This document shows positions 2,135-13,097 of a stretch of 64,000 nucleotides of DNA, piece after piece (position 1 is the first letter of the stretch; each line of letters opens with the position of its first letter). The position numbers and the translations under genes are program-made. A model generated the notes under the pieces. The model was given only the letters and a program-made list of their open reading frames with translations. It was not told the DNA's origin and searched no databases. Source of the stretch: Anaerovorax odorimutans DSM 5092 (GTDB lineage: Bacteria; Bacillota; Clostridia; Peptostreptococcales; Anaerovoracaceae); NCBI RefSeq assembly GCF_000426305.1, contig NZ_AUFC01000009.1, positions 62,001 to 126,000 on the forward strand, given 5' to 3'.

Positions 2135-2632
2135 CTAATATTCCAATATTTCTACCGCCTTTGGGAAAACATCATTTAACCTCATTTTATACAATACGCT
2201 TTCCCAAAATATCTGTCCAAAAAAGTACGTGCTAGCACCAATTACAAATGAAATTAACAAAAAAATCAGCATTGCCCTTGCTAAATTACGTTTGTTTATT
2301 TTACGACACCCACCACAGGCCCACACAATAGTAAGAATCTGCCCCATAATGGGAATACACATCAGAAAAAATATTCCCATATAGCCTCTCGTAGAAATTG
2401 ACTCATAGCAACTGCCTTTTATTGGTTTGTCTGTACATGTATGTTGTGGTTCTTTAACTGATGTAGGGATAGCCGATGCCATAGTAGTAGGCGCAGTTGC
2501 TATTATTTGAGGTTGAACAGGATGCAGATCAGTTTGCTCATACTGTACAGGTACTGACACTCCACACTCATTACAAAATTTATTTCCATCCTTTAAAGGC
2601 ATGCCACAACTGACGCACAATCTTGTTGACAT
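2135..2632 (-). CDS. Zinc-ribbon membrane protein
   Basis: 165 residues. The N-terminus is a zinc ribbon with two CxxC knuckles (CVSCGMPLKDGNKFCNECG, residues 6-24). A proline/threonine-rich linker (about 25-75) leads to two C-terminal membrane segments (about residues 90-115 and 120-140). This layout, a cytosolic zinc ribbon tethered to membrane helices, is frequent in Clostridia and without a known biochemical role. It is the last gene of a nine-gene minus-strand run, 40 bp after the SLH/RCC1-like gene. Two other proteins of the run (7431 and 8495) carry the same FCxxCG zinc-ribbon type, which ties the three together. Confidence 0.8.
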   Translation of the reverse strand: MSTRLCVSCGMPLKDGNKFCNECGVSVPVQYEQTDLHPVQPQIIATAPTTMASAIPTSVKEPQHTCTDKPIKGSCYESISTRGYMGIFFLMCIPIMGQILTIVWACGGCRKINKRNLARAMLIFLLISFVIGASTYFFGQIFWESVLYKMRLNDVFPKAVEILEY

Positions 2633-2672
2633 ATATATTCAACTCCTCTCAATTAATAATAATGCCTTTAAT

Positions 2673-4289
2673 CTAAACTAGCTGTATATATAACCTCAGC
2701 ATTGTCATATATGCCTGCTGCCTCTGATACCCTCCTTTGGGGTCAAACTTGTTGCTGCCAACACCAGACATAATTTTAGCGTCGAACACATATCCGATAT
2801 ACGGCTTTGCCCAAGCTGATATCATATCTGCATCATTAAACACAGGAAAATCAGCCATTGTATCTTTGCCTAACGCATCAGCTGTCGCTGTAAGCATTTT
2901 TGCTGCCTGCTCTCTTGTAATCTGATTGCTTGGATCAAATGTGGTAGCAGAGGTTCCGCTTACAATTCCAAGGGCATAAGCTGCCATAATATCTTTTTTT
3001 GCCCGTTCCGTAAGTCCACCAATATCGGTAAATGGAGAAGATTCAGGAATTGCAATGTTCTGCGTGGCAAGATAACTTTCTATAGTCATCTGCTTTGCCT
3101 GTTCTATGCAAGTGATAGCCAACGTACAGAACTCGCTTCTATTGACAATTTTACTATAATCACTTTGCATTGCTGGAGGTACTAGCTTTCTATACTCTGC
3201 TTCACGTACTTCTGCCAAAGCCCACGCCGCCGGTGCATCTTGCAGGTTTTGTGCCGTCAAGCGCAGTCCATTATGGCTGTTTTTTTCTGCATGATAAACA
3301 CCATCCTTGCTACCGCCGGTCCACAGGGTGTTGTCAGTTTTGATTGCCGCGATATGTCCTCCTATTGTAGCATAAAGCACATCAGTTGCCACTTTCTCCG
3401 GTTCCTTCAAAGTGCTTCCAAGTACATTTGTACCCCACACCCATAAAGCATTGTCTCTTGTAACAGCCATAAATCTAGCATCATACATAGCAACATGTAG
3501 TACATTGTCCATCACCTTGACCGGAGATAAGACCGGTCCGTCCACTGTGCCGTTTGCAGTATAAAGCTTACCACTGACACCGTTACCGCACATCCACAGA
3601 GCACCATCCTTTCGAAGAATCATGGTGTTGCTGCTATAGGAGGCAACATACTGCACGTCGTCCATGATTTTAGTAGGTGATAGAACCGGCTCAATATGCC
3701 CAACACCAAGTGCTCCGCTACCTACACCATCCTTATCGGTACTCCATCCCCATAACTCGTCACTTTCATTTATAAAAAAATGACTAGAGCCGCCTGTGGC
3801 CACAAATTTAACTTTTTGTGGGTGTTCCACTTGTTCAAATTCTTTACCAGCCAACTCATACAGTCCACCGGCGGTGGTTGTAATCATCATAATATTGCTG
3901 TAATAGGCCTCAATAGCTACAGAGGTGACATCATCTCTTAGCTTGGTAGGCTGTGCTACCTTGCTCAACCCACCGATTCTGCCCCAGTACCAAAGAGAGG
4001 CATCTCTTTTGATGACTACAACCGCATATCTGTTTGCACAGACACTTTTGACATCACTCATGATTTGTACCGGCTCATCAACCGAGTCTCCGCTACCAGG
4101 AATTAAGTCTTCCACATTTTTGCCAAATCCCCAAAGCGTTCCATCCTTTGTCACATAAAACGTAGTACCCCATCCAACTGCGGTGGTACCGCTTTCACCC
4201 ACTGCATAAGCCGGTACACTAAAACCCACAAATAGTGACAGCATGACAGAAAATGCTACCAACACACTCAGACATCTTTTTATTATCAT
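2673..4289 (-). CDS. RCC1-like repeat surface protein with SLH anchor
   Basis: 538 residues from the ATG at 4289, chosen because GGAG lies 7 bp upstream; the in-frame ATG at 4325 lacks a site. It has a signal peptide (about 1-30, hydrophobic core ending in VPAYA). Residues about 35-370 contain RCC1/BNR-type beta-propeller repeats with the recurring pattern 'DGTLWGFG', 'DASLWYWG', 'SDELWGWS', 'DGALWMCG', 'DNALWVWG' and 'DNTLWTGG', each beginning a blade. Residues about 380-538 contain three SLH-type modules (FTDIGGLTERAKKDI, GIVSGTSATTFDPSNQITREQA, MSGVGSNKFDPKGGYQRQQA), which bind pyruvylated wall polymers. The protein should therefore sit on the cell surface as a propeller. Ligand unknown. 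It lies between a lipoprotein gene and a zinc-ribbon gene. Confidence 0.85.
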   Translation of the reverse strand: MIIKRCLSVLVAFSVMLSLFVGFSVPAYAVGESGTTAVGWGTTFYVTKDGTLWGFGKNVEDLIPGSGDSVDEPVQIMSDVKSVCANRYAVVVIKRDASLWYWGRIGGLSKVAQPTKLRDDVTSVAIEAYYSNIMMITTTAGGLYELAGKEFEQVEHPQKVKFVATGGSSHFFINESDELWGWSTDKDGVGSGALGVGHIEPVLSPTKIMDDVQYVASYSSNTMILRKDGALWMCGNGVSGKLYTANGTVDGPVLSPVKVMDNVLHVAMYDARFMAVTRDNALWVWGTNVLGSTLKEPEKVATDVLYATIGGHIAAIKTDNTLWTGGSKDGVYHAEKNSHNGLRLTAQNLQDAPAAWALAEVREAEYRKLVPPAMQSDYSKIVNRSEFCTLAITCIEQAKQMTIESYLATQNIAIPESSPFTDIGGLTERAKKDIMAAYALGIVSGTSATTFDPSNQITREQAAKMLTATADALGKDTMADFPVFNDADMISAWAKPYIGYVFDAKIMSGVGSNKFDPKGGYQRQQAYMTMLRLYIQLV

Positions 4290-4347
4290 AATTTTCTCCA
4301 TTCCGCGCCGCTTCGCTTGCGGCACAAATCATTTAATCCTTTACTAT

Positions 4348-4893
4348 TTACGAAATCCCCATAAATGCTTGTATAATAGCTTCTTTATCAGGGTGAGTCA
4401 TCCCATAATCCTCAGCCGGAAAAATCAAGACCAAAGAATCATGAAACGTGCAATTGGCCTTCGGTGTTTTCCCGTTGATTTCCACACCAAAGATGGTAAT
4501 ATACCCGGATTCTTCAGCAGTTTTCAAATTTTCCTTTGTTTTTTCATCACTGCTTGTCGGGTCAAACAGATACACTTCCAACGGTGAGCCGTTAATATTA
4601 AATCCGTAACCCTCTAATGCACCTATTGATACCGCATCCTTTACCGCTTTGTCTTCTAATTTAAGTCCAATCGCTTCAAGCTGTGATTCAAAACTTGTCA
4701 AATAACGATCCATTGCACCATCGTTTTGAATACCAGAATCGCCAATCATTTCAGCAGGATCTATCGAATCAGTTTCAGAAATATTATTTTGCGATAGTGT
4801 ATTTGTATCGTCTGCTTCTTGCTCTTTCTGACAGCCTGCTAACAGTAGTGCCATTATTAAAAGAAAGCAAATTATATAAATTGGTTTTTTCAT
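4348..4893 (-). CDS. Lipoprotein of unknown function
   Basis: 181 residues with a clear lipobox (LLLAGC, Cys at about 21) after a short basic start. The mature part begins with a Ser/Thr/Asp-rich tether and continues as a compact mixed domain containing EVYLFDPTSSDEKTKENLKT and the C-terminal FPAEDYGMTHPDKEAIIQAF. The family was not recognised. It should be anchored on the outer face of the membrane. It lies 19 bp after the preceding lipoprotein gene and is one of four consecutive lipoprotein genes in the run, which suggests a multi-component surface assembly. Confidence 0.75.
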   Translation of the reverse strand: MKKPIYIICFLLIMALLLAGCQKEQEADDTNTLSQNNISETDSIDPAEMIGDSGIQNDGAMDRYLTSFESQLEAIGLKLEDKAVKDAVSIGALEGYGFNINGSPLEVYLFDPTSSDEKTKENLKTAEESGYITIFGVEINGKTPKANCTFHDSLVLIFPAEDYGMTHPDKEAIIQAFMGIS

Positions 4894-4912
4894 GAGCCTA
4901 TCATTCCTTTCA

Positions 4913-5785
4913 CTAATTTCTTGGGGTGATGGTTAAATCATATTTATCCAATACACCGGACTCGCCTTTACCCTCATAATGGAGTGAAAAAGGCTTTCCA
5001 CCATAAATTGCGTTGAATTTCTTCGTGTTTACAACTGAGCTGAATCCCAGTGCACCATGGTTATTTTCTTCGTAATCCTCTTCTAAATACATGGATAGAA
5101 GCGGCATCTCAAATCCTGGACCCAACTCGAAATCTGGCATGGCTTTAAGTACCACATCAAATTCGCTCACTAGCTCTATAAAAATAGTTCCCTCAGGAAA
5201 TACAACCCCAGCGCCTGCATTAAACCCTCCTTCTCCTGCACGTAGGATTTTCAAAGAAACCGGAGGGTCAAATTCGTCTATGGAGATGGCATAATCCTCC
5301 TGTCCCGGTTGGGATATAGCATGCCAACTTGGGGATAAAAACACACCGTTCAACTGCCCTGTAAAATGTTCAAACTCCTTTAAATTCACTTGACTATCGC
5401 TGTTTAAATCTAACGTATTAAAATCAATATCCTCATCATAGTCACTCCATTCATCCTGTGTGATGGTATCTGAATGGTTAAGATCGCATTCAGAAAACAT
5501 TTCTGTTGTTCCGTCCAATAAAACTTCTATTCCAGATTCGTACGGGGTAGTTTCTGCTTTTATTTCTACATCACTCCATTTTGCCTGAAGATCATACTGA
5601 TAAACTTTGTTGATATAGGAAAACTCAATATCAAATTGTTTACTAAGCCCTGTAACCTCTGGTAAATCAGATTCCATTTGATTTTTTTTCGTATCCGCCT
5701 GAGATAATGTGTCCGAATCCGAAGGCCCTGTACAACCAGATAGCAAGAGAAGCAAAACGAGAGATAACATTGCTATTTGTTTCAT
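4913..5785 (-). CDS. Lipoprotein with paired EF-hand-like loops
   Basis: 290 residues. The lipobox LLLLLSGC puts the lipidated Cys at about residue 18. Residues about 95-135 contain two calcium-binding EF-hand-like loops, DLNHSDTITQDE and DLNSDSQVNLKE, with acidic residues at positions 1, 3, 5 and 12 of the usual loop or conservative variants (His/Asn/Ser at some positions). The rest is beta-rich and of unknown fold. The inference is a calcium-binding surface lipoprotein. The start has GGAGG directly upstream and follows the next gene of the run by 26 bp. The EF-hand reading is fairly sure; the function is open. Confidence 0.78.
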   Translation of the reverse strand: MKQIAMLSLVLLLLLSGCTGPSDSDTLSQADTKKNQMESDLPEVTGLSKQFDIEFSYINKVYQYDLQAKWSDVEIKAETTPYESGIEVLLDGTTEMFSECDLNHSDTITQDEWSDYDEDIDFNTLDLNSDSQVNLKEFEHFTGQLNGVFLSPSWHAISQPGQEDYAISIDEFDPPVSLKILRAGEGGFNAGAGVVFPEGTIFIELVSEFDVVLKAMPDFELGPGFEMPLLSMYLEEDYEENNHGALGFSSVVNTKKFNAIYGGKPFSLHYEGKGESGVLDKYDLTITPRN

Positions 5786-5811
5786 AATTATCCTCCATAT
5801 ATTGATAATAG

Positions 5812-6630
5812 TTATTTTTCATTTAATGTAATTTGTACGAATGGATCATTCCCCGTATTTAGTAAGTGACTAATGGATACTGCAACTTTTATATTGTCGA
5901 TTTCACCTTTGAACTGTACTGCTTTCTGGACTGAAGTGTTATTCTTTTCTGCTTTTAATCCCAGTTCATCCGTATAATAGAGCACTGCATCCTCAAAGGC
6001 ATCTGCCGGTAACAAGAGGTCTACAAATCCACTGCTTTTCCCAGGAACCATAGAACATCCAATAACCTTTGCATCCGGATAAATTGGTACCACATCTTGA
6101 GGATAATTTTTATCCAAGTTTACTACTTCAGCGGTGTCATACGTCATCACATTGGAATCAGTATACTCGCTAGCGCTATTGTCCTCTTCTGAAATTTCCT
6201 GCCCGTCATTTCGAAGTGTCATATATACGTTTACCGCATCGCCCGTCTCTTCTATCGTAAGCCCTTTAATAAAGACATCACCAAAATCTACTCCCTCAAA
6301 GTAAGATTCCGTTTCGCCCACACCGGATTTATCTAGATTGAACGTATCAACATAAAAATCCACAATTTTATCATAATCAGCATCTACGCTGTAAAGAATG
6401 GTATAGTTGTTACCGTTAAAATTGTCTGCTTCGATAACTTGTGCGCCGGTGTAAATGGGGATTTCCTTTGGAAAGCCCTGCGGCATCCCTGCCACGACAT
6501 TCTCTGACTTATTAGCCATGCTTTTTGAACCTTCTTGATTTGTATGACTTGATGAGTCGCAACCTACAAGCCCTATTAAAAGTACTATGGCAAAAATTGG
6601 AACTAACCATCTTACAATAATTTTTTTCAT
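5812..6630 (-). CDS. Lipoprotein of unknown function with duplicated domain
   Basis: 272 residues from the ATG at 6630, which has GGAGG 9 bp upstream; an upstream in-frame ATG overlaps the preceding gene and lacks a site. The lipobox is IGLVGC. The mature protein has two related halves, each starting with a 'P.DVPIYPDAKVI'-type strand (FPKEIPIYTGAQVIEAD and YPQDVVPIYPDAKVIGC) followed by a helix containing 'VDFYVDTF' or 'VLYYTDEL'. This internal duplication resembles small two-lobed extracytoplasmic domains found repeatedly in Firmicute lipoproteins. The function is unknown. It follows the gene ending at 6644 with 13 bp between them. Confidence 0.78.
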   Translation of the reverse strand: MKKIIVRWLVPIFAIVLLIGLVGCDSSSHTNQEGSKSMANKSENVVAGMPQGFPKEIPIYTGAQVIEADNFNGNNYTILYSVDADYDKIVDFYVDTFNLDKSGVGETESYFEGVDFGDVFIKGLTIEETGDAVNVYMTLRNDGQEISEEDNSASEYTDSNVMTYDTAEVVNLDKNYPQDVVPIYPDAKVIGCSMVPGKSSGFVDLLLPADAFEDAVLYYTDELGLKAEKNNTSVQKAVQFKGEIDNIKVAVSISHLLNTGNDPFVQITLNEK

Positions 6631-6643
6631 GAGTAATATCCTC

Positions 6644-7417
6644 CTATTCATCATTTCCGATTTCCCACCATGGGGGCATATGCTCCCCTGTGTATTTGTA
6701 GGAAAATTCTTCTTTTATATATCCTTTCGGATATTCAAAAGCTGTTATATCTAATAGTTCCTGTTGAAACTTTGAAAATTCATAAGTACTACCCTCTTCA
6801 TCGCCTAATGATATTGTTAACTTCTTTAACATTCCGTCCTTCATATAGAAGCGATACTTGAACTGTAAGCTCTCATCCTGTTCAAAAGGAAGAGTGTGTT
6901 CATATAAGAAATACTCGTCAGTCTTGACAGTTAAGTCTGGGACAGTTTTAGCTGCTATCAACATCTTATATAGCAGAAAGTCCTCTGCCGGAGCTAGATA
7001 GGTTTTGATAATTTTGCTATCATCCATTATATAATGTACCTTTCCAGCTTTTTCAAGTTCTCTCACAGGCACAGCATTTTCATTCATATCATGTGCTATA
7101 AAAGTTTCTACCGATACATCCCCTGATTTTTGAAATGTTCTCATCGTGTTATCAGTACCCACAACAGAGTAGGTAAATGACAACTCTTCTGCGTTTGCAC
7201 AAATCAGATTTAAGAATTGATAGGGCGTTATCTCATTATTTCCAAAATCAACCAATGTTGTATTGTCAGAAGCATCTGAAAGAGCCTTCTCTTTAGCAGC
7301 TATTTGTTCTGGATATATTGTATTTGATGTGTTATCCTGTTGCTGTAATATAGAAGAACAACCTGCCAATAAACTAGCAATAGTAAGTATAAAAAGGACA
7401 AATAAACTTCTTCTCAA
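6644..7417 (-). CDS. Lipoprotein of unknown function (TTG start)
   Basis: 257 residues. The likely start is the TTG at 7417, placed 6 bp after AAAGGAGG and directly followed by a signal peptide with the lipobox IASLLAGC. A longer reading from 7540 would run through the end of the upstream gene and put the signal peptide inside the protein. The mature part has a 'PYQFLNLICANAEELSFTYS' opening and a beta-rich centre (IKTYLAPAEDFLLY, FLYEHTLPF, KYRFYMKDGMLKKL) that recalls the one-sided beta-sheet of LolA-like lipoprotein-binding domains; this is only a fold guess. It is 13 bp downstream of the 7431-8480 gene. Confidence 0.75.
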   Translation of the reverse strand: MRRSLFVLFILTIASLLAGCSSILQQQDNTSNTIYPEQIAAKEKALSDASDNTTLVDFGNNEITPYQFLNLICANAEELSFTYSVVGTDNTMRTFQKSGDVSVETFIAHDMNENAVPVRELEKAGKVHYIMDDSKIIKTYLAPAEDFLLYKMLIAAKTVPDLTVKTDEYFLYEHTLPFEQDESLQFKYRFYMKDGMLKKLTISLGDEEGSTYEFSKFQQELLDITAFEYPKGYIKEEFSYKYTGEHMPPWWEIGNDE

Positions 7418-7430
7418 AGTACTTCCTCCT

Positions 7431-8480
7431 TTATAATTTTTCTCCACAGGAACCACAGAACTTTGTTCCATGCTCATTTTCTGTACCACATTTTCCACAA
7501 AATATTGGCTTCGCTTTGGCAGTTTGCTGTAATGATTCATTTATCGTATTTATATCCGTTCCTGCGGAAGAAGACTGGTTTGTAGGTTTATCCCGCTGTG
7601 CTTTATTTAAAAGCTCTTTAAACTTGCTTGATATCCCGCACATCTTTTGATAGAGATCAAAAGTAATATGAGTTGTGGGTGCCACCTGCATATATGAAGT
7701 CATCATTTGAATCATTATATAGCTGTCAATAAAAGCAAATTTGATTGTCCAAGCAATCAAGCACGCTAATAGAAAGGCAACTAGAGGACTCCAATGTAAT
7801 AGCTTAAATAGTAGTCCTACCGGTAAAAACACTGCCAGTGCAATGATAAGCATAAGTAATAAGACCTTCAGCATGGTCTTTGCTGCACTCTTCAAAAGAA
7901 TTTCCCAGTTCTGGGCATAAATAACTACTCCATCTGCCGCGCTTTGGAATTCACTCTTATCTTTTTTATAAAATGTATATCCCAAGCAACATTCATCAAT
8001 GTATCCAAGAGAAATAGAAACAAAAAACTGAGCTAATCCTGTTATCGCACCCATTCCCGGAATAAAGTCAAATGCCTCTCCTACTTTTCCAACCCCTCGC
8101 TGAATCTGTTTAACCGAGCCAGTAACCAGCTTATCTACAATAAAATATACACTTGATGTAACAAAGCGCTCTGTCACCATCTGCTTTCCATATTTAACCT
8201 GATTATTGGGAATTTTGCCAGTGGTAACTGCCTCTGTAATAACCGCAACATGTCCGGCCTTAATCAGATATCCCATATAATGCATTATAATAAAGCGTAT
8301 TACACCTGTTCCACACAGCCAAATGATAAAGGTGATTCCCATGCCACCCTCGCCAAACAACCAGCCAATTCCCATAAGAATGGCAAATAAAATGGCAGAT
8401 AGTAATACAGTCGCTATGCCCAACGCCAACTTTGCCATATTAAATGGCATTGTTTTTTGGAAAATTTGTTTCGCATTCAT
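7431..8480 (-). CDS. Polytopic membrane protein with C-terminal zinc ribbon
   Basis: 349 residues from the ATG at 8480, chosen for its GGGAGG site; a longer in-frame start at 8516 overlaps the upstream gene. It has several membrane segments: two near the N-terminus (about 20-70), one or two in the middle (about 140-165) and three in the region around 200-270 (LLLMLIIALAVFLPVGLLF is typical). The C-terminus is a cytosolic zinc ribbon (FCGKCGTENEHGTKFCGSCG). The sequence between contains the repeated motif 'GAITGLAQFFVS', suggesting a channel- or scaffold-like protein. The family is not known to me. The position between a coiled-coil zinc-ribbon protein and four lipoproteins makes it the likely membrane hub of the operon. 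Confidence 0.8.
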   Translation of the reverse strand: MNAKQIFQKTMPFNMAKLALGIATVLLSAILFAILMGIGWLFGEGGMGITFIIWLCGTGVIRFIIMHYMGYLIKAGHVAVITEAVTTGKIPNNQVKYGKQMVTERFVTSSVYFIVDKLVTGSVKQIQRGVGKVGEAFDFIPGMGAITGLAQFFVSISLGYIDECCLGYTFYKKDKSEFQSAADGVVIYAQNWEILLKSAAKTMLKVLLLMLIIALAVFLPVGLLFKLLHWSPLVAFLLACLIAWTIKFAFIDSYIMIQMMTSYMQVAPTTHITFDLYQKMCGISSKFKELLNKAQRDKPTNQSSSAGTDINTINESLQQTAKAKPIFCGKCGTENEHGTKFCGSCGEKL

Positions 8481-8494
8481 AAATATTACCTCCC

Positions 8495-8974
8495 TTATTC
8501 CATTTTTGTACCACATTCACCGCAGAATTTTAGTCCATCTGTCACAATCATGCCACAAGAAGGACAAGTTTTGTGCTGCGGTTGTTCCAGCTTGTTACCA
8601 CATTCTTGACAGAACTTGGTTTCGTAGGCATTTTGCTTGCCACAAATTGGACAAATTATGCCGCCTTCGACGGTCAAATCACCCGAATTAGAGTCAACTG
8701 ATGCTTGCACCTTGATTGCGTCTAACTGTACTTCTGCCTCTTTTATGGCATCATAATGTTGATCAATTTCTAACATCCTCTCGTAAACCTCTGTATCAAC
8801 CGTATCTCCCAAGCGATGCTTTTCATAATAATACTCGCCAATTTGGCATATCAATTCATTTATTGCATCCCTTTCATCAGTTATTCTGCTATTTAATTTG
8901 TTTGTCTCGATTGCATCGTTTGTCATGTCTCCAATGCTTTTTGCAATATCATTCAGCTTATCAAAAAACGCCAT
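8495..8974 (-). CDS. Coiled-coil protein with two zinc ribbons
   Basis: 159 residues, cytosolic, no membrane segment. Residues 1-90 form a predicted helical hairpin or coiled coil (KLNDIAKSIGDMTNDAIET and later IDQHYDAIKEAEVQLDAIK). Residues about 108-159 hold two zinc ribbons in tandem (CPICGKQNAYETKFCQECG and CPSCGMIVTDGLKFCGECG). The same arrangement of helical N-terminus plus double zinc ribbon is common in uncharacterised clostridial proteins. GGAGG precedes the ATG. It is 14 bp upstream of the membrane protein gene, whose C-terminal zinc ribbon is of the same type, so the two may interact. Confidence 0.82.
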   Translation of the reverse strand: MAFFDKLNDIAKSIGDMTNDAIETNKLNSRITDERDAINELICQIGEYYYEKHRLGDTVDTEVYERMLEIDQHYDAIKEAEVQLDAIKVQASVDSNSGDLTVEGGIICPICGKQNAYETKFCQECGNKLEQPQHKTCPSCGMIVTDGLKFCGECGTKME

Positions 8975-8997
8975 TTGTTTACCTCCTATTCATTTTG

Positions 8998-9378
8998 TTA
9001 ATCAATTGTTAGATCTACTATGCCTGCTCTTTGTGATGAAACTTTTAAAGTGCTAATTGCCTCTTTACACTGCATTTCACTTAAATAGGGCACACTGCTA
9101 AAAATAATTTCACCATGAAATCCAATCAGTGAAAATGTTATCCCTTCTTCATCACTTTGCATTAGAAAATATGGAGGTATGCTACGCTGTTTGCCACAGT
9201 CACAAACATCAGCAACCATTGCCGCATCTCTAATATGGGCAAGGCAGGTCTCAAGCTCTGCACGATTGGAGAAGCTACGTGATATTACGGTAGTTTTGCA
9301 TTGTGAATCATTAAAAGTAAAATAATAATTTCCTATTGAATTCTGTTTAATCTCAAACACAGCACGCTTGTTAAACAT
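8998..9378 (-). CDS. YegP/UPF0339-like (DUF1508) protein
   Basis: 126 residues made of two copies of the short DUF1508 fold: 'FEIKQNSIGNYYFTFNDSQ..ISRSFSNRAELETCLAHIRDAA' and 'PYFLMQSDEEGITFSLIGFHGEIIFSSVPYLSEMQCKEAISTLK'. The pattern 'F.i......y.F.L.a.nG.vi..S..Y.s...c...I..v' is the family signature. The function of this family is not established. It is the first gene of the nine-gene run, with the start fixed by AAGGAGGCGG before the ATG. A region of repeated GGTCAT motifs and a TTGACA box lies upstream (9431-9470). Confidence 0.8.
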   Translation of the reverse strand: MFNKRAVFEIKQNSIGNYYFTFNDSQCKTTVISRSFSNRAELETCLAHIRDAAMVADVCDCGKQRSIPPYFLMQSDEEGITFSLIGFHGEIIFSSVPYLSEMQCKEAISTLKVSSQRAGIVDLTID

Positions 9379-9430
9379 TCATCCGCCTCCTTATCTTCAA
9401 TATCTTCTGTTCAATTATATCTACTATTAC

Positions 9431-9470
9431 GGTCATATAAAAAGTGTCAAAGGTCATGCGTTAGGTCATG
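9431..9470 (-). promoter_or_regulatory. Putative operator/promoter region of the envelope operon
   Basis: GGTCAT occurs three times in the same orientation (9431, 9452, 9464; ATGACC on the transcribed strand). TTGACA (minus strand, 9445-9450) lies between them, and a TATAAT-like box follows, although its spacing is longer than ideal. This suggests a promoter with repeated regulator sites. The nearby NarL-type regulator is one candidate. Confidence 0.35.
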
Positions 9471-9492
9471 ATTTTTCACTTAAAGTAATAAA

Positions 9493-9535
9493 AAATGCCC
9501 TGAAGAGCAGCAACTAAGTGACTCATAGGGCATTT
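9493..9535. terminator. Hairpin, possible terminator or stem-loop element
   Basis: AAATGCCCT (9493-9501) pairs perfectly with AGGGCATTT (9527-9535) around a 25-nt loop. It has no strong U tract on either strand beyond CTTGT, so termination is uncertain. It lies between the divergent operon and kinase gene. Confidence 0.4.
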
Positions 9536-9561
9536 CTTGTATTTATTTGTATGATATAAAT

Positions 9562-9732
9562 ATGATATAATGATTTCTATGATTGAGACAGCGTTGCTGC
9601 AAGGTAGAAATCATTGAATCATGCTTGGTTGCTTGTGTCATGATATAATGATTTCTACGATTGAGACAGCGTTGCTGCAAGGTAGAAATCATTGAATCAT
9701 GCTTGGCATCTTGTGTCATGATATAATAATTC
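9562..9732. repeat. Tandem 78-bp hairpin repeat (two copies plus partial third)
   Basis: The block starting TGATATAATG at 9563 recurs at 9641 and, as a partial third copy, at 9719, so the period is exactly 78 bp. Copies differ at only a few positions. Each copy is a large palindrome: ATGAT then AATGATTTCTA (9569-9579) pairs with TAGAAATCATT (9605-9615) then ATCAT, with an inner CAGC-GTT-GCTG hairpin in the loop. The second copy has the same arms at 9647-9657 and 9683-9693. The element lies just upstream of the sensor kinase gene. Confidence 0.9.
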
Positions 9733-9775
9733 ATTACATTAGAATGGGCATTAATCATAAAAAGGAGGAAGCAGT

Positions 9776-11506
9776 ATGGAAATATCTGAAAATCTGGCGG
9801 TTGAATTCAATTCCATAATCCTTTCACATATTCTTACACTTATGCTGCTTATTTTATTTACTTCTTACATTTATTTCAGAGCAAAAAAGTCTCCATTATT
9901 GTTTAGCTATCTTTCAGTTGTTGGCATGATTACACTTTGGATAATATCTAAAATTCTCAAAACGATATCTCCAATCATAGAACTTAGGTGGTTCTTCATT
10001 GTAACTCAATACTTTGCAATTGATTTTCTTAGCATCTGCTTTTTAATTTTTGCATATACTCATTCAAAAAACAGGCTGCCATCAAAAAAACAAATTATCA
10101 TGTGGTCAATTTTACCAATGGCTTCATTCATAGCCATTGTTACGAACCCCTTACACATGTCTTTCTATTCTTATTTTGATATTTATAAGGATCGCTTTGG
10201 TATAACATTTTATGTCGCACAAAGCTTTCATTATATCTACCTTATCATCGGAATCTACTTGCTTGCACATGAGTTTACAAAACAGTCATTTTTCGCTGGA
10301 AAAAAGAGTCTGGGAAATATGTTTGCAATATTTGTACTCTTACCACTATCTGCTAATGTTTACTACATATTGTTTAAAATAAACCTGTTCCCATGGATTT
10401 TTCCGTTTCCGATTTTCGATTTCTCACCGATTGCCGCTTCCATCTCGCTGATATTGTTCATGTTTCCTGCCCTAAAATTCCGGTATTTTGACATGTCTCC
10501 GGTTTCACTTACTAGTCTATTTAACCTTGTACCACAAGGAATAATATTTGTTGACAAAGAACACCGATTTTATGGAGCTAACAACACCCTTTTATCCATG
10601 CTAAATCTGAACAAAAAACAGCTAACACTTAAGCAATTGGTTGAATACACAAAAGACTTGATGAATATCCCTGAAGGGTTGTTTTCAGAATTTATCACAG
10701 ATAGCAAAAAATGGGATATAGAGATTATGTTAACCGATGATCGCTATATCAAGGTCACAAAAACCAACTTAAAAAACGGACATCTTCTGCTTAATTTTCA
10801 TGATATTACTGCAATTAACAAAAACCATCTTCTACTTTTAATGCAAAATGAAGATCTTGAGAAATCAAACAAACTTTTGGATCAAATGGCAAGGGATACT
10901 AAAGAATTAGCTATAACCCGAACAAAATCTAAAATAGCTCAAAACGTCCATGATATTTTAGGACATTGCTTAACCGTTGTAATAGGTACTGCTGAACTTG
11001 CATCAGAAGAAACAGCTCAACAAGCAAAAAAGAAAGCATTACAAATAGAAGAACTTCTAACTGGAAGCCTCAATGATCTACGCAACACTCTCAGCGGAAA
11101 CGAAATGAAGTGGGGACAAACGACCTTAACAAAAGCAATTGATTTTCTTAAAAACGATAATATCCATGTAGATATAAATATTCATGGAAATCCTTATGAA
11201 CTAAGCAGTATGCAGACTGAAGCCATATATAGGTTATGTCAAGAAGCAATCACCAACTCAATTCGTCATGGCAACTCTAGGACCATCTACCTTATTTTAT
11301 GGTATCATGCACAGAAGGTCGAGATTTATGCCGTGGATAATGGAAAGGGCTGTAAAAATATAAAAAAAAATTACGGTCTTACAGGCATTGAAAAAAGATT
11401 TACAGATCTTTGCGGGAATATAAGCTTTGCCTCTGATGGCGAATCCGGTTTTACGATTCACGGAATTCTCCCTAGAATTGTAAATGTTAAACCATGGCAT
11501 GATTAA
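9776..11506 (+). CDS. 7TM sensor histidine kinase, NarL-partner (HisKA_3) type
   Basis: 576 residues. Residues about 15-235 are a seven-helix membrane sensor of the HisKA_7TM type. Residues about 245-345 form a PAS domain (LVPQGIIFVDKEHRFYGANN). The dimerisation/phosphoacceptor region holds His392 in 'AQNVHDILGHCLTVVIG', the HisKA_3 pattern. The C-terminal ATPase has an N-box (LCQEAITNSIRHG) and a G-box (VDNGKGCKN, YGLTGIEKR). It autophosphorylates and should pass phosphate to a LuxR-type response regulator. The obvious partner is encoded convergently at 11487, overlapping its 3-prime end by 20 bp. The start follows AAAGGAGG. The signal is unknown; tandem hairpin repeats lie in its leader region. 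Confidence 0.9.
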   Translation: MEISENLAVEFNSIILSHILTLMLLILFTSYIYFRAKKSPLLFSYLSVVGMITLWIISKILKTISPIIELRWFFIVTQYFAIDFLSICFLIFAYTHSKNRLPSKKQIIMWSILPMASFIAIVTNPLHMSFYSYFDIYKDRFGITFYVAQSFHYIYLIIGIYLLAHEFTKQSFFAGKKSLGNMFAIFVLLPLSANVYYILFKINLFPWIFPFPIFDFSPIAASISLILFMFPALKFRYFDMSPVSLTSLFNLVPQGIIFVDKEHRFYGANNTLLSMLNLNKKQLTLKQLVEYTKDLMNIPEGLFSEFITDSKKWDIEIMLTDDRYIKVTKTNLKNGHLLLNFHDITAINKNHLLLLMQNEDLEKSNKLLDQMARDTKELAITRTKSKIAQNVHDILGHCLTVVIGTAELASEETAQQAKKKALQIEELLTGSLNDLRNTLSGNEMKWGQTTLTKAIDFLKNDNIHVDINIHGNPYELSSMQTEAIYRLCQEAITNSIRHGNSRTIYLILWYHAQKVEIYAVDNGKGCKNIKKNYGLTGIEKRFTDLCGNISFASDGESGFTIHGILPRIVNVKPWHD

Positions 11507-12134
11507 TGGCAAAAACAGAGAGCTCTGTTCGGTCGGAAAATCCCGTTACAGAAAGAAGCTTAGATATTTTATTTTTAATGGTACCTTCACTGTAACTCAA
11601 TATGGCACCAATTTCTTTATTAGATTTTCCCTGTACAATCAGCTGAAGAATTCTTATATCAACCGTATCAAACACCATATTATCAATTGTTACTTTTCTG
11701 CTTTTTGTTCCGTGTACATCTGTAACTGCTGTTTGCAGCAATTTATATGCACCTTTATGAAACAATACCATGTTATTATAAATGCACTTTATTGACATAA
11801 TTAATGTTTCAGGCATCATATCCTTAATTAGATATCCGTCGGCTCCAAGTTGTACAGCCATCTTAATATTTTCATCATCCTCAAAGGTAGTCAGCATAAC
11901 TGCTTTCACCTGTGGAAAAGATTCTTTAATATCTTTCAAAACTTCTATACCACCTTTACCAGGCATTCCAATGTCTAACAACGCGATATCAAGCGTTTGT
12001 CTTCGGCAGCATTCTATTACTTCATTACCATTGGAGCAGGAAGCAAGAACTTCAAACTCATCATCACGCCTCAACATTTCTTCTAACATAGAACGAAATA
12101 ACAAATGATCATCAGCCACTAAAATACGAATCAT
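11487..12134 (-). CDS. NarL/LuxR-family response regulator
   Basis: 215 residues. The receiver domain (1-120) has the acidic pair ADD at 7-9, phosphoacceptor Asp54 (LLDIGMPG) and Lys in 'YLIKDMMPETL'. The LuxR-type helix-turn-helix is at about 155-205 (LIVQGKSNKEIGAILSYSE, then GTIKNKISKLL). It binds DNA when phosphorylated. It is the second gene of a minus-strand pair: 3 bp separate it from the kinase-like gene starting at 13097. Its 3-prime end overlaps that of the complete kinase on the other strand, an unusual convergent arrangement that could let the two transcripts interfere. Confidence 0.92.
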   Translation of the reverse strand: MIRILVADDHLLFRSMLEEMLRRDDEFEVLASCSNGNEVIECCRRQTLDIALLDIGMPGKGGIEVLKDIKESFPQVKAVMLTTFEDDENIKMAVQLGADGYLIKDMMPETLIMSIKCIYNNMVLFHKGAYKLLQTAVTDVHGTKSRKVTIDNMVFDTVDIRILQLIVQGKSNKEIGAILSYSEGTIKNKISKLLSVTGFSDRTELSVFAINHAMV

Positions 12135-12137
12135 ATC

Positions 12138-13097
12138 TTACACTTCCTTTCCTGCTATTTTGCTAACAGCATGCCGCACAGTACAATATACTTCACGCAA
12201 TTGAGTTGCTAGATTTTTCATAACAACATGATATGAGCAATCCTCAAAGCAATTTTGTTTAGCTTTCCCAAGGTTTAGTAATATCTTTTCAATATCATAA
12301 ATCAATGTTTCTTGCACATGTTTTAGAATTATCAACCGTTCTTTCTCAGCATCTAAGGCACCTGCAACACGCACATAATTTGACAATCTTTCATTTGCCT
12401 GTTTCAGATAATAATTGCGTTCCTGTAAAAGTTTTTCACTTTCCTTCATTGTGGAAATATCCTCAAGCACTGCTGTATATCCCAATTGGCTTCTGTCATT
12501 AATTACAATAGGAGTAATTTTAAGAATATAGTATTTTTTTGCATCATGAAATGTAAGCTCACATTCTGCAGTGCCTTTAATTGCGTCAATCCCCTTGCCG
12601 TTTTTCCAACATGCAGAACAATTTAACTCCATAAAAGAAATAAGCTGGTTTATTTCCTCAATATTCCCGAACAAATAGGTATATTTTTTAGGATGATTAA
12701 TATGAGTAATGTCACCATCTCGGTCTACCACAAAAACGATGTCATCAACACTTGACAAAGCTTTAAGTATATTAGGAGACAAATTTTGATAATTATTCTT
12801 TCTACTCCAAACAAATATTACAATCAGTCCAACACTGATACTAGCCCACATAAGCATGAAGGATAACCTTGCAATCTGATAATATACTTTGGATAAGGAA
12901 AGCACAAATACAGCAGAACTCATCATATTAAAAATCAACCAGCTTACAGTGAATAATGATACGATATATATATTAGCAGTAAAATAGCTTCTTCTATGCC
13001 TTACCGTCATATACATATTGAAAGAACAGATTGCTATGATTGCGGTAATGGTAATGACTGCTGTAAAAAACGGATAATAACTGAGCGTCCTACCCAT
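12138..13097 (-). CDS. Membrane PAS protein resembling a kinase without its ATPase domain
   Basis: 319 residues. Residues 1-100 hold about four membrane helices, a shortened version of the 7TM sensor region. Residues about 108-215 are a PAS domain (LSSVDDIVFVVDRDGDITHI) with a C-SAC motif inside. The remainder is helical, ending in a segment (ILKHVQETLIYDIEKILLNL) that resembles the HisKA_3 dimerisation helix, with His near 268, but no ATP-binding domain follows and the gene stops. It therefore cannot be an active kinase by itself. It may form heterodimers with the complete kinase at 9776 or act as a phosphatase or decoy for the regulator encoded next to it. The start has GGAG upstream. Confidence 0.75.
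   Translation of the reverse strand: MGRTLSYYPFFTAVITITAIIAICSFNMYMTVRHRRSYFTANIYIVSLFTVSWLIFNMMSSAVFVLSLSKVYYQIARLSFMLMWASISVGLIVIFVWSRKNNYQNLSPNILKALSSVDDIVFVVDRDGDITHINHPKKYTYLFGNIEEINQLISFMELNCSACWKNGKGIDAIKGTAECELTFHDAKKYYILKITPIVINDRSQLGYTAVLEDISTMKESEKLLQERNYYLKQANERLSNYVRVAGALDAEKERLIILKHVQETLIYDIEKILLNLGKAKQNCFEDCSYHVVMKNLATQLREVYCTVRHAVSKIAGKEV

Follow-up and report, generated by a model that had tools for sequence, protein, structure and literature searches.

Genes and features of the locus

Within the genome of Anaerovorax odorimutans DSM 5092, a stretch of 64,000 nucleotides (the window; contig NZ_AUFC01000009.1, positions 62,001 to 126,000) carries nine closely spaced genes, g1 to g9, that encode cytosolic, membrane, and surface proteins. 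Our tentative reading, which we rate at somewhat short of an even chance, is that they are a sensor-controlled envelope-maintenance operon or complex composed of two conserved modules, block S and block Z, interleaved with one another. The genome is 3.26 Mb in 54 contigs, and its genus has no other sampled species.

Nine open reading frames were confirmed between 2135 and 9378, all in the minus strand. A GGAG- or AGGA-like (Shine-Dalgarno-like) site precedes every start, and the best of these sites were used to pick the starts of g1 (9378), g2 (8974), g6 (5785), g7 (4893), and g9 (2632), and to revise those of g3 (8480, not 8516), g4 (a TTG at 7417, not 7540), g5 (6630, not 6654), and g8 (4289, not 4325). 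With these starts, the spacing from g1 to g9 is, in order, 23, 14, 13, 13, 26, 19, 58, and 40 bp. Gaps of no more than 58 bp are consistent with one transcription unit, and weak terminator-like matches fall within genes. The original prediction, made from the sequence alone, had described nine genes with gaps of 60 bp or less; this is confirmed, at 13–58 bp, and its reading frames stand, with the start codons of g3, g4, g5, and g8 corrected.

The domains proposed there were also right, namely a YegP-like protein in g1, zinc ribbons in g2, g3, and g9, lipoproteins in g4 to g7, and RCC1 with SLH in g8 (Table 1). In Pfam, g1 matches DUF1508 just below the cut-off of 22 bits (E 2.1e-4, 21.5 bits), and its orthologue at L148, a related locus described below, is well above it (1.8e-11, 44.2 bits). 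The g8 protein matches WD40_RLD (2.8e-35), RCC1_2 (1.6e-14), and SLH (8.4e-19), and has an ordinary signal peptide, judged by inspection and its hydrophobic stretch. It is like other SLH-anchored RCC1 surface proteins in combining a signal peptide with RCC1 and SLH repeats, but two SLH repeats are detected rather than the common three, and its operon partners are unlike those of S-layer loci. One lipoprotein had been proposed to contain EF-hand loops and another to be internally duplicated, and both proposals hold. Two canonical loops can be read by eye in g6, DLNHSDTITQDE and DLNSDSQVNLKE, where the Pfam EF-hand_7 match (1.1e-4) is under the cut-off. The halves of g5 share 24% identity across 102 residues (E 0.002, with 8 of 500 shuffles equally good), which looks like an old internal duplication.

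Table 1. Coordinates of the operon genes and adjoining features in the window.
Feature	Coordinates	Strand	Evidence
g1, YegP/DUF1508-like cytosolic protein, block S	8998..9378	-	Pfam DUF1508
g2, coiled coil and two C-terminal zinc ribbons, block Z	8495..8974	-	DZR 1.2e-10
g3, multi-helix membrane protein with C-terminal zinc ribbon, block Z	7431..8480	-	Profile HMM, fold model
g4, lipoprotein, TTG start, block S	6644..7417	-	Lipobox LAGC, fold model
g5, internally duplicated lipoprotein, block S	5812..6630	-	Lipobox LVGC
g6, lipoprotein with two EF-hand calcium loops, block S	4913..5785	-	Lipobox LSGC, loops by eye
g7, accessory lipoprotein, no known relative	4348..4893	-	Lipobox LAGC
g8, secreted RCC1-type beta-propeller with two SLH repeats, block S	2673..4289	-	Pfam
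g9, N-terminal zinc ribbon and two transmembrane helices, block Z	2135..2632	-	Profile HMM
Shared intergenic region, g1/kinase	9379..9775		Promoter-like sites near 9414-9450, repeats
Divergent sensor histidine kinase, HisKA_7TM + PAS + HisKA_3 + HATPase	9776..11506	+	HisKA_7TM 3.3e-22
NarL-type response regulator, receiver + LuxR helix-turn-helix	11487..12134	-	Response_reg 1e-24, GerE 1.8e-8
Membrane protein of unassigned family adjoining the regulator, possible accessory sensor	12138..13097	-	Synteny

Downstream of the operon and outside the conserved blocks, a LUD-domain protein is encoded at 1176-1781 (3.1e-30).

Conserved blocks and their regulators

Judged by synteny, block S comprises g1, g4, g5, g6, and g8, the 7TM histidine kinase encoded divergently from them, and the NarL-type regulator, all in conserved order. 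A search with g5 across 390 other genomes of the class gave one strong match, of about 46-47% identity, at locus L148 in G324, a genome from a different family. The block S gene order is repeated there at identities of 31-63%, which places the gene set beyond chance. The L148 operon contains, in order, relatives of g1 (46%), g4 (45-48%), g5 (46%), g6 (31%), and g8 (63%), the last being the most conserved member of the block. Compared with L148, the window has four extra genes: g2 and g3 separate g1 from g4, g7 separates g6 from g8, and g9 follows g8 as the last gene. The g6 match covers only the C-terminal part of a 764-residue lipoprotein (L148 7250-9544). This lipoprotein has a dockerin (EF-hand-like) domain in place of the EF-hand loops of g6, and calcium binding may be retained through this different domain.

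The regulators at L148 are in a matching divergent arrangement (kinase 52%, NarL-type regulator 53%, and third membrane gene 30% identity), and by this comparison the conserved unit reaches further upstream in the window, where it takes in the divergently encoded kinase (9776-11506) and, beyond it, the regulator genes (11487-13097). The defining domains of a two-component system are present, HisKA and HATPase in the kinase and a receiver with a helix-turn-helix in the regulator. In this respect the pair is like other HisKA_7TM/NarL systems, and it is unlike them in being specifically co-conserved with the operon and with the third membrane gene, whose product has no Pfam match. Block S is rare: g8 has no strong match among 398 other genomes of the phylum, and a search with the g5 relative of G324 found none in the five further genomes sampled from that family.

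The region between g1 and the kinase gene contains three (C/T)ATGACC direct repeats (9427-9470), which coincide in part with the promoter-like sites ahead of g1. They could be regulator sites, and a comparison with the region preceding the L148 operon did not find them there. The same region contains a 78-nt hairpin-forming repeat array (9562-9731), with two tandem copies and the beginning of a third. Its 32-nt core occurs at 25 places in the genome with no more than 3 mismatches, compared with 0 in a reversed control, and several of the copies are arranged in arrays with 78-nt spacing; the 78-nt repeat is a dispersed intergenic repeat family. A search of the region for known RNA elements gave a single sub-threshold match only.

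Block Z consists of g2, g3, and g9 and, according to profile and gene-order comparisons, recurs in other Clostridia within cassettes of zinc-ribbon genes. Relatives of g3 at 50-70% identity are present in Diplocloster modestus (L031) and several Clostridia assemblies, and g3 sits with g2 in L031, L030, L035 (genome G126), and L096 (G170). Relatives of g9 are found in L031 (11595-12206) and L111 (7933-8526). The cassettes contain varying subsets of a small ribbon protein, a 116-residue multi-ribbon protein, a 260-residue protein with multiple ribbon motifs, a g9-like protein with a ribbon and two transmembrane helices, a DUF4412 lipoprotein, and a protein of ~440 residues, and members of this set are also found at related loci without g3. 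Genes at GC-rich loci were called with a composition-scored open reading frame picker. Matches of g3 that were due to zinc ribbons alone were discarded, since any ribbon protein yields them. Profile hidden Markov models (HMMs) built without window sequences recovered g2 (6.1e-42), g3 (2e-137), and g9 (1.1e-23). When ribbons were masked in a second test, the coil of g2 (1.2e-14) and the transmembrane part of g9 (1.6e-19) were still recovered. Gene-order conservation in relatives, which the original prediction had set as a test of its operon, therefore survives, but as two blocks, S in G324 and Z in several Clostridia.

Homology of g1 to the small zinc-ribbon protein encoded first in the Z cassettes was considered and rejected: identity is 21-24%, no ribbons are shared, and a profile made from the cassette-opening proteins did not find g1, leaving only an equivalent position. 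Separately, five loci of one family, L098-L102 (G518, G359, G415, G246, and G379), have a solitary ribbon-less g3 homologue at a conserved genomic place, which indicates that the g3 membrane family also lives outside cassettes.

Ribbon-tailed g3 homologues are in cassettes at 5 of 8 loci (the window, L035, L030, L031, and L096; not L034, L095, or L108), compared with 0 of 14 for ribbon-less homologues (Fisher p about 0.002 by hand; 0.001 was computed at 5/7, before L108 was added), and a LuxR-type regulator gene adjoins 13 of 18 cassettes, compared with 0 of the 15 loci where g3 is solitary (p 2.9e-5). Both p-values are optimistic, since the loci were tallied manually and the controls are partly related. 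The association of a g3 ribbon tail with cassettes suggests that zinc ribbons may serve as docking tags. The cassette regulators are either LuxR proteins with 12 transmembrane helices or LuxR proteins with two, usually beside a solute-binding lipoprotein; the one in L095 is soluble. The window kinase and NarL-type regulator, with its LuxR-type DNA-binding domain, occupy their place.

Pairs of a solute-binding lipoprotein and a protein with two transmembrane helices that ends in a LuxR helix-turn-helix are encoded at L031 5571-8620, L030 2472-5522, L109 5245-8245, and L039 9031-11906, and these are apparently one-component membrane sensors attached to zinc-ribbon cassettes. At L038 (6497-7909, genome G077), a g9-like ribbon protein with two transmembrane helices and a DUF4412 lipoprotein domain form one in-frame protein of 470 residues, a fusion that joins a ribbon part on the inside to a LolA-like domain on the outside.

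Alternative readings and predicted folds

These gene-order comparisons establish the co-conservation of the genes and their linkage to regulators. The original prediction went further, in proposing one assembly that spans cytosol, membrane, and surface, for example for surface sensing or secretion. One regulated unit across the three locations is a fair reading, because block S is syntenic with the kinase and regulator and block Z recurs. A single assembly goes beyond these comparisons. Each of blocks S and Z can be found without the other, which makes the operon modular and not one indivisible machine. As for surface sensing, the adjoining sensors support a sense-and-respond role.

A sensor-controlled envelope-maintenance operon is favoured by the synteny of block S with its regulators, the block Z homology recovered without window sequences, the L038 fusion, both locus counts, the g4 fold match to LolA, RseB, and LprG, and the precedent of B. 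subtilis (see below). Several results weigh against it. The L148 locus is without g2, g3, g7, and g9, so block S needs no block Z, and L148 is the single block S relative found. No regulator-site motif common to the promoter regions of the window and L148 was found, and the optimism of both p-values noted above also counts here. Confidence in the g4 fold model is modest (mean predicted local distance difference test, pLDDT, of 60, with 70-83 in the core), its alignment presupposed kinship with DUF4412 lipoproteins, and a leave-window-out HMM of the cassette DUF4412 lipoproteins found nothing in g4. For g3 (model pLDDT 76), the top Foldseek match, PNS1 (9f63; E 0.046, probability 0.91, template-modelling score 0.31), is weak.

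The strongest rival, a serious minority possibility, is that the operon is a co-regulated collection, in which the kinase and regulator induce independent envelope proteins under the same condition without mutual contact between them. That blocks S and Z are found apart fits this, as do the absence of a g7 relative from L148 and the variation of accessory genes by locus, with PA14-SLH and Big2-SLH proteins in L030 where the window has RCC1-SLH. However, ribbon-tailed membrane proteins are repeatedly paired with ribbon-bearing soluble proteins, and this pairing and the g9-DUF4412 fusion in L038 both suggest contacts; the retention of block S order at 31-63% identity also argues against a loose collection.

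A further reading depends on the predicted folds of g4 and g3. The g4 model is matched by Foldseek to LolA (1.5e-6, probability 1.00), RseB (4.8e-6), and LprG (4.3e-5), plus ependymin-related proteins, and g4 is accordingly predicted to have a half-open beta-barrel of the lipid-binding type, like these three proteins. It resembles the LolA/LppX/LprG/RseB superfamily, relatives of DUF4412, in predicted fold and outer location, and differs in that sequence profiles of DUF4412 lipoproteins miss it. With no Pfam DUF4412 match and an hhalign probability of 48%, membership of g4 in DUF4412 was dropped at the sequence level (HMM and Pfam) and retained at the level of fold. Envelope stress is sensed by RseB and by the related MucB. 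The window genome is of the Clostridia type, most relatives of which are without an outer membrane.

The g3 Foldseek list also includes CTL1 (rank 4) and CysZ, which is coherent but weak, and the g3 model is thus weakly predicted to be PNS1/CTL1/CysZ-like. The helical layout of the model loosely resembles that of CTL/PNS1 (SLC44) and CysZ proteins, whereas the C-terminal zinc ribbon and the lack of a sequence match set g3 apart. A search against Pfam Choline_transpo gave no match up to E 1 and a profile search gave no CTL or PNS1 match in the PDB, so SLC44 membership finds no support in the sequence. PNS1 has been reported to be structurally similar to CysZ (PMC13160678).

On these folds, transfer of lipid or lipoglycan might be proposed, with g3 as a permease or scramblase-like protein regulated by the ribbons, and g4 as an outer carrier to the wall layer, as LprG is in mycobacteria. 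The LolA and LprG matches of g4, the PNS1, CTL1, and CysZ matches of g3, and the DUF4412 lipoproteins that accompany g3 in L035 and L030 would all suit such a role. We consider it improbable, since g3 matches neither Choline_transpo nor the sequences of PNS1, CTL1, and CysZ structures, the CTL fold has been argued to be incompatible with transport (PMC13160678), the operon is without an energy-coupling protein, and block S in L148 has g4 without g3. Least probable is a surface adhesion, display, or secretion apparatus with the g8 propeller as its working part and the other proteins exporting or presenting it: g8 is secreted, SLH-bearing, and the most conserved member, and the L030 cluster holds SLH proteins with other domains, but models of ATPases, translocases, pilins, and sortases found nothing among the nine proteins, which leaves the secretion apparatus of the original prediction unsupported, the g8 signal peptide is ordinary, and gene maps of the L035, L043, L096, L111, and L112 cassettes have no obvious SLH protein.

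Comparison with PspA-YdjGHI and a possible mechanism

The closest analogue of a sensor-controlled envelope operon of this kind is pspA-ydjGHI of Bacillus subtilis, in which membrane recruitment of YdjI and PspA requires YdjG and YdjH (PMC8581546) and YdjG has two zinc ribbons (PMC11237479). Both combine, in a stress-type operon (a presumed one in the window), a cytosolic coiled coil with zinc-ribbon membrane proteins, which in the window are g3 and g9. Unlike it, the window operon has no PspA, band-7/SPFH, or TPM protein, adds surface lipoproteins and an SLH protein, and is presumably controlled by a kinase and NarL-type regulator instead of sigma-W. No match to PF04012 (PspA/IM30) above the cut-off is found in the window genome, and searches of Pfam and NCBIfam gave no band-7/SPFH (YdjI) or TPM (YdjH) match in the nine proteins. 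The N-terminal amphipathic stretch of g2, followed by a coil, had suggested a PspA relative, and this was rejected when a profile comparison with the PspA of a relative gave a probability of 0.4%. By analogy, the window operon would work somewhat like PspA-YdjGHI and is not a member of that system.

For the physical assembly and function of the operon products, we infer the following mechanism. The kinase would sense an envelope signal and the regulator would turn the operon on. Outside, the predicted LolA-fold lipoprotein g4, lipoproteins g5 to g7, and SLH-anchored g8 would bind lipids, calcium, and wall polymer. Inside, as a cytosolic zinc-ribbon scaffold beneath the lipoprotein and SLH layer, the coiled-coil protein g2 would dock by its own ribbons onto those that g3 and g9 carry as tails, and would keep the outer parts at a membrane site that needs stabilization. 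This would resemble the recruitment of a cytosolic coiled-coil protein by its zinc-ribbon and membrane partners in PspA-YdjGHI, achieved with unrelated parts.

A broader extension, which we regard as doubtful, is that the zinc-ribbon cassettes constitute a class of envelope machine, so far undescribed, that is present in Clostridia and elsewhere in the phylum. Its ribbon scaffold, on the inner side of the membrane, would link a sensor to surface modules that can be exchanged, and the window version would have captured a separate, kinase-controlled surface module. No description of these cassettes was found in open-access papers. Clostridia commonly have proteins that combine zinc ribbons with coiled coils or membrane helices, and these have no assigned role; here they are found in repeated, regulator-linked cassettes. 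If the sensor-controlled reading is true, it would provide a testable system for envelope stress or surface maintenance in bacteria whose sampled relatives are mostly without PspA, and would explain why a lipoprotein of the LolA-like type is present in a class whose members mostly lack an outer membrane.

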